A stretch of 63,936 nucleotides of DNA from positions 1 to 63,936 of the forward strand of contig JAJFJQ010000037.1 of assembly GCA_021773835.1 (NCBI GenBank). Direction: 5' to 3'. Of the stretch, positions 37,857 through 42,108 are shown in pieces. A program made the translations under genes and the position numbers. Numbering within the stretch: position 1 is the stretch's first letter; every line of letters starts with the position of its first letter. Under the pieces are notes generated by a model. The model was not told the DNA's origin, did not search any database, and was given only the letters and a program-made list of their open reading frames with translations. The stretch is from Gammaproteobacteria bacterium (GTDB taxonomy: Bacteria > Pseudomonadota > Gammaproteobacteria > Ga0077536).

Positions 37857-39134
37857 TTAGAAGAACACAAAAGACCGGACCACAACATTCTTGCGGCACG
37901 GCGCATCAAGCGGAGCAGTCGGATCAACACAGGCGGAGTGGAAAGACCAACGCGAAACGGAGCCGTCGGTAACAGAGTCATAGCACTTAAGCATCGAGAC
38001 CTCCGTGGGTGTCTGTCTTGGCAGCCAATACCACTCATGGTCGGACCGGTAGGTAAAGCGAGTGGTCTCGCCTACCCGGTCGTCGTAGATGCGGTAGTTG
38101 TTGATGTAGGGCTGGTCGGCGAACGACGGCCACGCACATAGTACGAAGGGATTCTGCATCACCGTCTGCATCGGCTTGGCAAGGTTAATCGACATGTACC
38201 GCCGCGACATCTTCGCGTCGGCCTCAGCTTCCGTGTAGTGCTGTTCGCGGCCGAAGTTACGCAAATTCTTCGTCAGCAACTCGCGACAGCGGACCCGGCC
38301 GCTGTTGTCGTTAAGATCGTTATGCACGATGTTGGCGTAGAAATTGTTGACCCCAGGGTTCTTATTGTCCTGGTCCTCGGTTCGGTCGCCGGTGTATTCA
38401 ATATCAAACACGTCGTGGTTATAGACGAGTGCGTCGGTTGCACCGGGGAAAAATTCGAGTAGGAGCTTTTCCATCTCCGGATAGAACACACGTTCCACTT
38501 CATGCGCATCATAGAAATTCCGGCATTCGGATTCACAGTGAGCCAACGAGACACCGAGTCTGTCCATACACTCAGGGCTGTACGGTGACAGGCCGGGGTA
38601 GTACTCCTCGATGCGTCGCGCGTCACGCATCACATGCGGGAAATATAGGCGGCGCCGCTCGATGTCTTCCTCTTCCTTGCGCAGTGCCTCGGCATCCGCT
38701 TTTCGCGTAGGATCGGACCACAGTGCGTTGGAAGATACGACGGTGTAGGACGGCTCCTCGTAGATGGTATAGCGCAGGGGTAGCGCCAAACCACCTTCAG
38801 GGGCTTCGATGCCGCTCGTCCGAATATGTTCTACACACTCCTCATAGGTGCGGAAACCGATCCCCCACTTGGTCTCGATCGGGCCTGGGGGCGCATTGTC
38901 GAGCATGTCGATGATTGCCTGCCCGTCGCCAATCGCGATCTGGCGAAGTGCCGCCTCCGTCGCCGCAGCCGTGCCTGCATCGCCGTCCCGGTCGAACGAC
39001 ATATAAGATAAACCGCCGTTTGCGGCGAACGGCGGTGGTTGCCCCTCGGTCAGTTGAAGGGGTGGCACGTAGGCTGACGGCGCGATGTCTGTCTCCAACG
39101 CAAGGTCGTTCGTAACACGATTAGGCTGATTCAT
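37857..39134 (-). CDS. CmcJ/NvfI-like Fe(II)/2-oxoglutarate oxygenase
   Basis: 425 residues from the ATG at 39134 (GGAGGC upstream); a GTG start 66 nt earlier is possible but not needed. The family signature is present. NIVHNDLND gives Fe ligands His271 and Asp273, and NLAKPM with FVLCAWPS forms the core. HEWYWLPRQTPTEVSMLKCYDS leads to the distal His399 (FHSACVDP) and the 2-oxoglutarate-binding Arg near 420. Such enzymes hydroxylate or desaturate specialised substrates (cephamycin CmcJ, fungal NvfI). It is longer than most, with an extra N-terminal region of about 90 residues. The substrate is unknown. Confidence 0.8.
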   Translation of the reverse strand: MNQPNRVTNDLALETDIAPSAYVPPLQLTEGQPPPFAANGGLSYMSFDRDGDAGTAAATEAALRQIAIGDGQAIIDMLDNAPPGPIETKWGIGFRTYEECVEHIRTSGIEAPEGGLALPLRYTIYEEPSYTVVSSNALWSDPTRKADAEALRKEEEDIERRRLYFPHVMRDARRIEEYYPGLSPYSPECMDRLGVSLAHCESECRNFYDAHEVERVFYPEMEKLLLEFFPGATDALVYNHDVFDIEYTGDRTEDQDNKNPGVNNFYANIVHNDLNDNSGRVRCRELLTKNLRNFGREQHYTEAEADAKMSRRYMSINLAKPMQTVMQNPFVLCAWPSFADQPYINNYRIYDDRVGETTRFTYRSDHEWYWLPRQTPTEVSMLKCYDSVTDGSVSRWSFHSACVDPTAPLDAPCRKNVVVRSFVFF

Positions 39135-39463
39135 AGTACGCCTCCGGCTCAGGAGCCTGGATCTTGGCACACCAGACTTGCACTGCCTAGGGAAGGCCAC
39201 AATGGCCGCGAAATTGCTGTCCGTCGGCGCACGTCCTGGGGCTAGATCGGTTTATCGCGGTCTCAGTTGTGACCTGGTGTAGTGATTAAATCATGCACCT
39301 GCTTTATCCTTGCGCACTCCCAAATATTTGGCGCCATATTCGGCGTCGCGATTCGGCTTGATCGTTTTGATTGCGTCGCCAAATTACGGGTTTTATCACG
39401 GCATCAAGTAGTCGCCATATTGGGGATTGCGTAGTTGTATTTGTAACGAGTTGGAGACAAGAA
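39135..39463. other. 329-nt intergenic region
   Basis: It separates divergent genes (CmcJ-like on minus, exported protein on plus). It contains a related pair GGCGCCATATT and GTCGCCATATT near 39330 and 39410, but no gene. Reading frames here on the minus strand are shadows of the genes at 39.5-39.8 kb. Confidence 0.35.
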
Positions 39464-39817
39464 ATGAAGTATGGATTTTTGGTGTTACTAATCGGTGCAT
39501 TGTTGTCGGGGCCCGCGAGCGGCGAAGGGCCGACACATATGACGGAACCGTTAGCCACCGCCGGCGCCTCGGCTGTTAAGGGGCACGGCAAAATCATATT
39601 GACGGAAAGCAACCTGGAGCACCCAAACGGACGATACATGTTCCGCGCAGCGACCGACTTCACTGCGACCGTTAGTTGTGGAAACGGCCACGGCTCGAAT
39701 TCGGTAACGCTTATGCGCAAAGGAGATATGGGTACCCTTGATTGCAGAAACGCGACCGGCAGCATCAGCATTACCGGTGCCACTGGGGTCCTGGTCGATA
39801 TCATCGCCATCTGGTAA
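39464..39817 (+). CDS. Small exported protein
   Basis: 117 residues. The Sec signal is MKYGFLVLLIGALLSGPASG with cleavage near 20-22. The mature part of about 95 residues is predicted mainly beta and has two Cys (in VSCGNG and LDCRNA), likely disulfide-bonded in the periplasm. It ends in a hydrophobic VDIIAIW. No family recognised. The ATG at 39464 has GGAG 9 nt upstream; an earlier in-frame ATG (39371) would bury the signal. It may lead the run with the TPR, ATPase and arrestin-like genes. Confidence 0.7.
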   Translation: MKYGFLVLLIGALLSGPASGEGPTHMTEPLATAGASAVKGHGKIILTESNLEHPNGRYMFRAATDFTATVSCGNGHGSNSVTLMRKGDMGTLDCRNATGSISITGATGVLVDIIAIW

Positions 39818-39872
39818 CCAGGCCGGCGGCACAACTGTCTTAACTCAAAAACCGATTACCCTGACTCGAGAA

Positions 39873-40451
39873 ATGTCACCAAGTTCCTCCCCTTCCGATT
39901 CCGTCAATGCTCAGATTTGGCAGGTCCTCGCATTGTTGGATAAATTGCCGTCGGCGCCACAATCGGGATACCGGCTGCATCAGTTGGCTGCCAACTTCGA
40001 AATGCTGAAGCATCCGGACCCCGAGGAGCGTGCCGGCGCTGAACAGCAGATTTGGACGGCGTGGTGCGACCATTCACAACCGATCGCCAAAGCTGCCATG
40101 ATGACCGGCATCGGGCATTTATCCGATGGTGAACTCGAACCAGCCAAGGCGATATTCGACCAGCTCGTTGCCGACCACCCGACGTGGGCGGAAACATGGA
40201 ACAAGCGCGCGACCGTTCTTTTCCTATTGAATCGAGATGCGGAAAGCGTTGGCGACATTCATCGTACGCTCGAACTCGAGCCGCGCCACTTTGGTGCGTT
40301 GGGCGGCTTCGCTCAAATCTGTGTCCGCAATGGCACCCCTGAGGCTGCCCAGCAAGCGCTGTCACGTCTACTCGCGGTCAATCCGAATGCACCCGGCGTG
40401 GCCGAAGCTCTGGCCTCGCTGGCCAATGACGGACCAAACGTTCTGCATTAG
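39873..40451 (+). CDS. TPR-repeat protein
   Basis: 192 residues, no signal peptide. After a helical N-terminal part, about 95-180 carry at least two tetratricopeptide-like helical pairs (PTWAETWNKRATVLFLLNR; RHFGALGGFAQICVRNG). Such repeats bind partner proteins. The chosen ATG (39873) begins after the exported gene's stop; a longer frame starts within that gene. It precedes the P-loop ATPase by 27 nt, so co-transcription is likely, and it may be the scaffold of that cassette. Confidence 0.7.
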   Translation: MSPSSSPSDSVNAQIWQVLALLDKLPSAPQSGYRLHQLAANFEMLKHPDPEERAGAEQQIWTAWCDHSQPIAKAAMMTGIGHLSDGELEPAKAIFDQLVADHPTWAETWNKRATVLFLLNRDAESVGDIHRTLELEPRHFGALGGFAQICVRNGTPEAAQQALSRLLAVNPNAPGVAEALASLANDGPNVLH

Positions 40452-40478
40452 AGTGTTATTGCAGAACAGACTTAACTT

Positions 40479-41090
40479 ATGGCCAAAAGCGACCTGGCAT
40501 TTAGTAAGCTCAACCTTCGCTTTAACCCATTTGGTGAGCTCGATCCGGCCGAGCGAACGCAGCTCGCGGTCGTTGACGTCGCGCCCCTGGTCCCTATATT
40601 GAGGAACTCTAGGACTGCCATCCAGTTTCTTGCGGACCATGGACGCGGTAAAACGACCCATTTACTCGCCTTGCATGCTTATTTTCCGGGTGCACCGTAT
40701 CTGAAGCTCCACAGCGGCAGTCGTCCGGTCTTACATTCTGCACAAATTCATTTTATCGATAGTATCGAACATCTAAACGCGCGTGCGCGCAGGCGACTCT
40801 ATCGGCGATCGAATTCCATCGCGTTTACGACGCACATCGATTTGAGCGAAGAGCTTGATCGGAGCGGTTTGAAACTCACCACCGTCAATGTCAGCTGCAG
40901 CAACATTGAAACACTACAGAAGATTTTTCAAAAGCGAATTGAATTCGCGAGACGCGGTTCTGGCGACATACCAATGATCTCCAAGGAGACGATCCGAGCA
41001 TTGAAGTCGCAACATCAAGACGATATTCGGGCCATCGAAAATAGTCTATATTTTCAATTCCAAACCATGGACGCTATCGATCGTGGCTAA
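40479..41090 (+). CDS. P-loop ATPase of unknown role
   Basis: 203 residues. A Walker A-like loop is at 52-59 (ADHGRGKT, with Ala at the first Gly position), and a Walker B-like strand is at 90-94 (IHFID). The opening LRFNPFGELDPAER recalls the NPF start of ExeA/TniB-like AAA ATPases. The chain is shorter than these, and the usual sensor and lid regions are only partly present. Its last 8 nt overlap the arrestin-like gene, so the two proteins are made together. An energy-using partner of the membrane protein is the natural guess. Confidence 0.7.
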   Translation: MAKSDLAFSKLNLRFNPFGELDPAERTQLAVVDVAPLVPILRNSRTAIQFLADHGRGKTTHLLALHAYFPGAPYLKLHSGSRPVLHSAQIHFIDSIEHLNARARRRLYRRSNSIAFTTHIDLSEELDRSGLKLTTVNVSCSNIETLQKIFQKRIEFARRGSGDIPMISKETIRALKSQHQDDIRAIENSLYFQFQTMDAIDRG

Positions 41091-42108
41091 GTGCGACATC
41101 AAAATCTCACTAGATAAAACCGATCTGACCTACGAAACCCACGATCGCGTTAAATGCCGATTTCAAGTGACGGTGGATAAACCAGTTAAATGCAAAGGGT
41201 TTATCGCCTCAATCCTGTGGCGCACCCATGGGAAAGGAAATCGCAATCAAAAGGAGATGCAGGAAACAGTCCTGTTCGAAGGCAATTGGGAGGTTGGCAG
41301 TTACGACTACGAACACACCTTCATAATTGTGGACGGACCCACCACTTACCACGGAAAAATTGTCAACGTCGATTGGTATATTAAGGCCACTGTCGACATA
41401 CCTTGGGCCTTTGATCCCAAGGAGGAAGTCGATTTCATCGTGCGGCGACGGGACAAGGATCGCACGTCACCTCACGATGCAAAAGAACTAGAATTCACCG
41501 GTCAAAAGAACGGTGTCGAATTGGCTAAAGAATTTTCTGGCAAAATGTACAAAGCGTATCTTGGGTTTGCCGGTGTCGCTTGTCTTGGAGGGATCTATTT
41601 GTTGGTCAGCGGTGTCATTCAAAACCTAGACATAGAAAAAATTATTTGGGGTTTAGGCTTACTCCTTATGGCGTACGGCTTCGCCTGGAATCCATTGAAA
41701 AAAGCTATCGCGGAAAATAAATTCGGTTCAATCGATTTTGAAATAGAAAATGCAACGCTATATCCCGGAGAAAATTGCCGCGTGTCGTTTCGTTTTGTTG
41801 CGAAGCGCGACATTTTGATCAACGGGCTAGCACTTCGGCTCGTCGGGGTAGAAACCGCCACCTCGGGCAGCGGGACGAATGAGACGACCTATCATGAACC
41901 CTTATTTACCGACAAAATAGATCTGGACGTGCCGAACATTGCCCGTGCCGGGCGAGCGGTAGAAAGCTCGGCGGAGATCGCTATTCCGGAAGCTGCGCCG
42001 GCGACGTTTCTCGCCTCCGATAATTCTGTAACATGGACGCTGAAAGCCGCGCTCGACGTTGAGAAATGGATAGACATCGAACGTGAACAGCCCATTACCG
42101 TTAGATAA
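41083..42108 (+). CDS. Membrane-anchored double arrestin-like protein
   Basis: 341 residues from a GTG start overlapping the ATPase gene. Residues 1-120 form a beta-sandwich with arrestin-type strands (LDKTDLTYETHDRVKCRFQV, KPVKCKGFIASI). Two hydrophobic helices follow at about 158-179 and 187-202, joined by a short loop. Residues 215-341 form a second such sandwich (TLYPGENCRVSFRF). The hairpin anchor places both domains on the same side, probably cytoplasmic. Bacterial relatives of the fold include Spo0M-like proteins, but the two-domain membrane layout is unfamiliar to me. It probably works with the ATPase just upstream. Confidence 0.65.
   Translation: MAKCDIKISLDKTDLTYETHDRVKCRFQVTVDKPVKCKGFIASILWRTHGKGNRNQKEMQETVLFEGNWEVGSYDYEHTFIIVDGPTTYHGKIVNVDWYIKATVDIPWAFDPKEEVDFIVRRRDKDRTSPHDAKELEFTGQKNGVELAKEFSGKMYKAYLGFAGVACLGGIYLLVSGVIQNLDIEKIIWGLGLLLMAYGFAWNPLKKAIAENKFGSIDFEIENATLYPGENCRVSFRFVAKRDILINGLALRLVGVETATSGSGTNETTYHEPLFTDKIDLDVPNIARAGRAVESSAEIAIPEAAPATFLASDNSVTWTLKAALDVEKWIDIEREQPITVR

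Follow-up and report, generated by a model that had tools for sequence, protein, structure and literature searches.

A conserved pair of bacterial genes that encodes an arrestin-like membrane protein and an AAA+ partner

The window analyzed here is a stretch of 63,936 nucleotides (nt) of gammaproteobacterial DNA (GCA_021773835.1, contig JAJFJQ010000037.1). It contains four consecutive genes (39464-42108), and the last two of these form a conserved two-protein module, comprising an arrestin-like membrane protein and an AAA+ partner. All four are present as open reading frames on the + strand, and the gaps of 55 and 27 nt and the overlap of 8 nt given in the initial annotation are exact. The same annotation knew of no described system with this combination. 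Our literature search likewise gave no description of a membrane arrestin with an AAA+ partner, judged by titles and abstract openings in the open-access literature, a scope outside which bioRxiv and most subscription papers lie. The two components come from superfamilies already known, and as a system they appear to be new. Arrestins are best known from eukaryotes, where they act as adaptors binding receptors and transporters of the membrane. We suggest, giving it slightly less than an even chance, that the bacterial protein is a membrane-anchored adaptor or clamp for a membrane client, and that its AAA+ partner acts on it as an ATP-dependent switch. If that is true, the handling of membrane proteins by arrestins under ATP gating would not be confined to eukaryotes, and it would come as a system of two genes that can be rebuilt and tested; it may also bear on how planctomycetes organize their membranes.

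The two genes of the module and their features are as follows.

40479-41090, + strand: ATPase gene, type I, NPF-motif AAA+ protein of 203 amino acids, beginning after a gap of 27 nt; assigned from the invariant LNLR and NPF motifs, the AlphaFold model and the relatives
40632-40655, + strand: Walker A motif A-D-H-G-R-G-K58-T, with the first Gly replaced by Ala; from the alignment
40749-40763, + strand: Walker B motif H-F-I-D94-S95, with Ser in place of the canonical Glu, and Glu97 two residues on; from the alignment
41083-42108, + strand: membrane arrestin-like protein gene, 341 amino acids, GTG start, overlapping the ATPase gene by 8 nt; assigned from Pfam, the profile match to TXNIP and Foldseek
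41083-41457, + strand: arrestin-N domain (Pfam PF00339, E = 1.4e-7)
41218-41241, + strand: conserved loop W-R-T-H-G-K-G-N in arrestin-N, common to the split planctomycete form
41524-41721, + strand: predicted transmembrane hairpin between the arrestin domains, helices 148-179 and 184-213; from a low-confidence model and hydropathy
41722-42105, + strand: arrestin-C domain (Pfam PF02752, E = 1.2e-5, slightly under the cut-off)
41863-41880, + strand: loop S-G-S-G-T-N in arrestin-C, conserved in the alignments

The GTG start of the arrestin gene is supported by the nine sequences of its alignment, since all begin M-[A/S]-K-C (with one extra Met in L051; L and G numbers are our labels for loci and genomes). 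Remoter arrestin relatives have other N-termini.

The arrangement found in the window is a compact form, and its ATPases are designated type I. When 84,980 species genomes were scanned with the single ATPase sequence, a query that finds close relatives only, three loci were obtained, in two gammaproteobacterial metagenome-assembled genomes (MAGs) and one Pirellulaceae MAG. At all three an arrestin gene lies directly downstream of the ATPase. With a four-row profile the type I ATPase is found in six of 294 Planctomycetota genomes, and with a nine-row profile in three of 321 genomes of the class to which L034 belongs, that of L034 itself included. The arrestin gene is directly 3′ of the type I ATPase in 10 of the 11 genomes examined, counting the window, so that the earlier proposal that these two proteins belong together holds. 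Nine of the genomes have the arrestin next on the same strand at a spacing of -17 to +48 nt, and in six of the nine the coding sequences overlap. In G519 the ATPase is split over two contigs, with its C-terminal piece preceding two arrestin genes, and in G572 ATPase and arrestin are located on different contigs.

A second arrangement is found in Planctomycetota. Here the module is split into three genes on one strand, in the order of a gene with transmembrane and arrestin-C segments, a short arrestin-N gene and an ATPase of about 200 amino acids (type II), at 20 loci in 20 genomes. The arrestin-C gene is followed by the ATPase in the same strand and order at all 20. The arrestin-N stretch between them passes a threshold of 1e-4 at 14 of the 20 loci. 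A glycine loop of the pattern W-x-T-x-G-x-G is present at 10/10 type I and 17/20 type II loci, and the three loci from which it is missing (L153, L154 and L166) pass the arrestin-N profile, whereby every type II locus shows an arrestin-N by profile or by loop pattern. DUF3592 (PF12158) lies at the N terminus of the split-form membrane protein in each of three tested (E = 1.2e-12, 1.9e-15 and 4.5e-6) and is absent from the compact form of the window; we know of no function for this domain. Homology between the type I and type II ATPases extends along their length (hhalign probability 99.1%, E = 1.7e-18 over 173 columns). A first type II profile was discarded, as it had taken up type I ATPases during iteration, together with ABC transporters and an antisense frame. 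The profile used, A5, was rebuilt from 17 hand-picked members adjacent to arrestin genes; three further arrestin-adjacent members (L158, L161 and L164) were excluded because their frames merge with others, and all three match it. At one type II locus (L146:5911-7161, - strand) the arrestin-C stretch is divided between two reading frames, which may mean a break in the gene or in the assembly.

The two proteins also occur together where their genes are separated. Among the 294 Planctomycetota genomes, 42 match the arrestin profile at 1e-5. The 17-row type II ATPase profile matches 24 at 1e-10, these being the 20 split-form genomes together with G478, G591, G648 and G734. In G478, G591 and G648 split arrestin genes are present with the type II ATPase elsewhere in the genome; in G734 no arrestin is matched, and the contig ends within the ATPase. 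Either type of ATPase is present in 29 of the genomes, and 28 of the 29 have an arrestin match compared with 42 of 294 overall (hypergeometric probability 1.3e-27, a value that overstates the association because the genomes are related and A5 was built from arrestin-adjacent members). In the 28 genomes with both, the genes are side by side in 24 and apart in four (G478, G591, G648 and G572). It could be argued from these four, one of compact form and three with split arrestin and ATPase apart, that the two genes are neighbors without a common function. The same partners are kept in two different gene orders, however, and co-occur when separated, and we consider this explanation extremely improbable.

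The arrestin assignment of the membrane protein comes from sequence profiles, which bear out the domains proposed in the initial annotation. Arrestin_N scores 32.1 bits against a cut-off of 24.9 bits for the window protein, and all nine family members match at E ≤ 1. For Arrestin_C the window protein reaches 26.1 of the required 27.7 bits, L033 passes with 28.1 bits, and eight of the nine match at E ≤ 1. A profile of the nine-member family reaches human TXNIP (1.8e-9) and ARRDC3 (1.5e-8), followed by VPS26B (0.007) and Spo0M (0.011). In the N domain the loop consensus is W-x-T-H-G-[K/R]-G-N, and in the C domain it is S-G-S-G-T-N, apart from a few variants. A low-confidence model has two β regions around helices 148-179 and 184-213, and when used in Foldseek it places β-arrestin, VPS26 and TXNIP near the top, with Spo0M at rank 43. 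Hydropathy shows two peaks between the domains in nine of 11 compact-form arrestins, and a single peak in the window protein and in L048.

The closest solved sequence relatives are thus the eukaryotic α-arrestins TXNIP and ARRDC3, ahead of VPS26 and Spo0M, and they share the Arrestin N and C domains. The window protein differs from them in having a hairpin between the domains and a dedicated AAA+ partner gene. α-Arrestins carry PY motifs in a C-terminal tail (PMC2515105, in the part available). By contrast, the window protein ends at its arrestin-C domain with no tail, and contains no PPxY or LPxY motif. VPS26 of the retromer also has two arrestin domains (Foldseek 7.2e-8), yet hairpin and AAA+ partner belong to the window system and not to VPS26. 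VPS26 works with VPS35 and VPS29. Spo0M is bacterial and a member of the arrestin clan, and to our knowledge neither a membrane hairpin nor an ATPase partner is a feature of it. At E ≤ 10 the window protein is not among the matches of Pfam Spo0M, though five of nine relatives are at E ≤ 1. According to the available part of PMC2515105, the clan as of 2008 was represented in eukaryotes by arrestin and VPS26, and in archaea and bacteria by Spo0M. In B. subtilis, Spo0M has since been connected with cell division and with the shape of the membrane (PMC5325327, in the part available), and in the accessible part of PMC6524685 arrestin is mentioned only in a reference.

The kinship with α-arrestins and VPS26 raises the question of whether the module is a bacterial counterpart of eukaryotic arrestin and retromer trafficking, serving membrane uptake or the internal membranes of planctomycetes. 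The split form comes from planctomycetes, which were the phylum searched for it. However, the pair is also present in proteobacteria, a likeness of fold shows no function, and no coat or cargo partner is linked to the module when the neighbors of 30 loci are compared. We think such a role very improbable.

By its AlphaFold model the ATPase is an AAA+ domain like those of the origin recognition complex and clamp loaders. The model, from a four-row alignment, has a mean predicted local distance difference test score (pLDDT) of 78 and a predicted template modeling score (pTM) of 0.72. Its best match in VIA-align is an ORC chain (Z = 12.1 over 189 residues at 3.2 Å, residues 5-202), and it resembles ORC/Cdc6 and clamp-loader (RFC) AAA+ proteins, with a C-terminal helical lid present. 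Taken singly, the window ATPase finds no Pfam model within E ≤ 10, and hence no AAA model above its cut-off; single-sequence searches of the PDB gave nothing below E = 0.4, and the type I profile nothing below 0.1. With the type II profile, RFC subunit 2 is matched over positions 47-195 (8.3e-6). Fold, P-loop and Walker B Asp are shared with ORC/Cdc6, clamp-loader AAA+ and STAND/NACHT proteins, but the window ATPase has only about 200 amino acids, no further domain and no Walker B Glu.

In a nine-row alignment G55, G57 and K58 of the Walker A P-loop are invariant, as are the LNLR and NPF motifs. The first position of Walker A is Ala in all five members of the group to which the window belongs (window, L033, L034, L137 and L138), and Gly in all six planctomycete type I proteins. 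In the same five the Walker B motif is Asp-Ser with Glu at +3, and in the six it is Asp-Glu. All 17 type II ATPases have Asp-Gly, with an acidic residue at +3 in 15 of them. The window ATPase therefore lacks the canonical Asp-Glu pair, and as judged from its sequence catalysis is doubtful, while the AAA+ fold is not. Since the acidic residue of Walker B moves or is lost, a motor is no more likely than a nucleotide switch.

The Asp-Gly Walker B of the type II proteins recalls STAND proteins, and the ATPase of L154 reaches NACHT at 6.7e-6, slightly under the cut-off. The defense filament AVAST5 is among the structural matches of the ATPase model (Z = 11.1). Together with the patchy distribution of the module, these would fit a STAND-like nucleotide switch, tethered to the membrane and responsive to a signal or stress, possibly in defense, with the arrestin serving as tether or recognizing the trigger. 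The initial annotation had thought a defense-like role conceivable, beside ATP-driven membrane remodeling or trafficking. Against this, no PADLOC match was found at E ≤ 1 in six proteins (four from the window and two from L035, flanking genes not included), no relative is present in the viral collection scanned and no effector domain is seen. We regard such a switch as unlikely, though it is the alternative that we take most seriously. The N-terminal NPF and the D-E-x-Q Walker B appear to resemble those of ExeA/TniB ATPases, and the type II protein of L054 passes the AAA_22 cut-off (32.2 versus 27 bits). The ATPase might be an ExeA/GspA- or MoxR-like factor of assembly or secretion, which would build an envelope structure by means of the arrestin-like protein. 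No neighboring gene family recurs at more than four of 30 module loci, however, and we judge this to be less probable again than the STAND-like switch.

We prefer the switched adaptor or clamp. The arrestin-like protein would be anchored in the inner membrane by its hairpin, with both arrestin domains in the cytoplasm, and would hold a membrane client. The AAA+ protein would dock on the arrestin domains at their conserved glycine loops, and its ATP state would toggle the clamp between holding the client and releasing, or remodeling, it. A slow switch is more likely than a fast motor, as the ATPases of the window's group and of the split type have no usual Walker B Glu. In its broadest form the proposal is of a previously undescribed bacterial machine in a compact two-gene and a rearranged three-gene form, distributed over planctomycetes and some proteobacteria, in which a membrane-embedded arrestin selects and holds clients under the gating of a dedicated AAA+ protein, in parallel to the eukaryotic arrestin and VPS26 adaptors; this we put forward tentatively, as something we would sooner doubt than assume.

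A number of observations weigh against this interpretation. Fourteen of the 42 arrestin genomes have no ATPase match, and in three of these, G459, G494 and G544, the arrestin is matched over its full length. The arrestin cluster of G459 runs off the end of its contig, and the other matches in ATPase-less genomes, partial or weak, may be other arrestins. Such absences are soft, as at most 5 to 10 candidates were scored per genome. For the type II ATPase profile the top PDB rows are matches to RecA and ABC proteins that cover the P-loop only. The single-sequence model of the membrane protein is poor (pLDDT 55.6, pTM 0.34), and whole-length overlays of it on arrestins give a root-mean-square deviation of over 20 Å. 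Its top rank in VIA-align is Spo0M (Z = 11.3, with 117 C-domain residues aligned), tied with non-arrestin TRAP-complex chains (Z = 11.2), so that this result alone decides nothing on the arrestin fold. Structure prediction of the two proteins alone, called for in the initial annotation, has given an AAA+ fold for the ATPase, and for the membrane protein has given arrestins in Foldseek from a model whose whole-length overlays on them are poor.

The first two genes of the stretch are these.

39464-39817, + strand: exported protein gene; a signal-like hydrophobic stretch at the start, by our reading of the translation
39873-40451, + strand: TPR protein gene, 55 nt after the exported protein gene (Pfam TPR_14, E = 1.1e-9)

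The initial annotation had grouped all four genes as one cassette, a grouping that we reject. No relative of the exported or TPR protein is present at 31 other loci of the module, 11 compact-form loci in 10 genomes and 20 split-form loci, in some of which contigs end close by; tblastn at E ≤ 1 gave only rows at chance level, the best at 0.77. The nearest TPR relatives within the window's family of genomes, two proteins of about 50% identity, have different gene neighbors, and their genomes lack the pair. In G003, a genome of the same genus that is 82% complete, a contig shares with the window, at 69-88% identity, the GST gene that adjoins the pair and a further four beyond it, five in all; the 2.5 kb before its GST gene contain other genes and none of the four. 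The neighborhood search thus upheld the ATPase and arrestin genes as traveling together, and excluded the exported and TPR genes. The exported protein matches no family above cut-off (best Pfam row E = 0.1; no NCBIfam row). The TPR protein is of an ordinary kind; it belongs to a family that has the conserved C-terminal end P-N-x-[L/V]-H and occurs in varied contexts (window:39873-40451, L092:7682-8287 and L093:1602-2177).

The shared genes indicate that, on at least one side, the window contig belongs to its host. The G+C content of the pair genes is 0.50 and 0.48, compared with 0.557 for the window; the adjacent GST gene is likewise low (0.514), so the low value of the pair says little about gain. 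Wide spread among close relatives is rejected, since in a set of 58 genomes only that of the window has either protein at E ≤ 0.001, and the other 57 have neither. Among 398 genomes of the phylum, 45 others give weak arrestin rows (best E from 0.007 to 0.63) that we take for chance. As to a plasmid or viral gene, there is no match in the plasmid and viral collections scanned, phage records not included. In a nine-row tree of the ATPase the window groups with four sequences of proteobacterial genomes with support of 100/98. In the corresponding arrestin tree that group has only 65/62, and the window is drawn weakly on the planctomycete side (79/64). A search for 16S in the window's own genome gave nothing on which its class could be based.

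Some genes recur beside the module. The best recurring neighbor is what we take to be an RNA polymerase α C-terminal-domain-like gene, upstream on the same strand at four of 20 type II loci (L149, L153, L154 and L165). In two related genomes (L033:4350-8097 and L137:4703-8800) presumed FHA-like and RIO-kinase-like genes stand before the type I pair, and a presumed RNA-methyltransferase-like gene after it. In three genomes (L199, L203 and L204) the type II ATPase lies away from the split arrestin genes, each time beside genes that we assume to be metallo-β-lactamase-fold-like and ketosynthase-like. Upstream of the four genes in the window, on the - strand (37857-39200), is a protein of 447 amino acids without any Pfam match at E ≤ 10.

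Tandem genes encoding arrestin and transmembrane segments are found in three genomes, on the - strand at L053:5341-8566, L138:3-1439 and L139:6533-8444. One copy is cut by the contig end in L138 and L139, and the second copy in L053 has no conserved glycine loops. A linker and a similar extra C-terminal segment, absent from the window protein, extend the planctomycete arrestin-like proteins of L035:6685-8049, L048:6957-8717 and L053:5341-8566 to total lengths of 454-586 amino acids.

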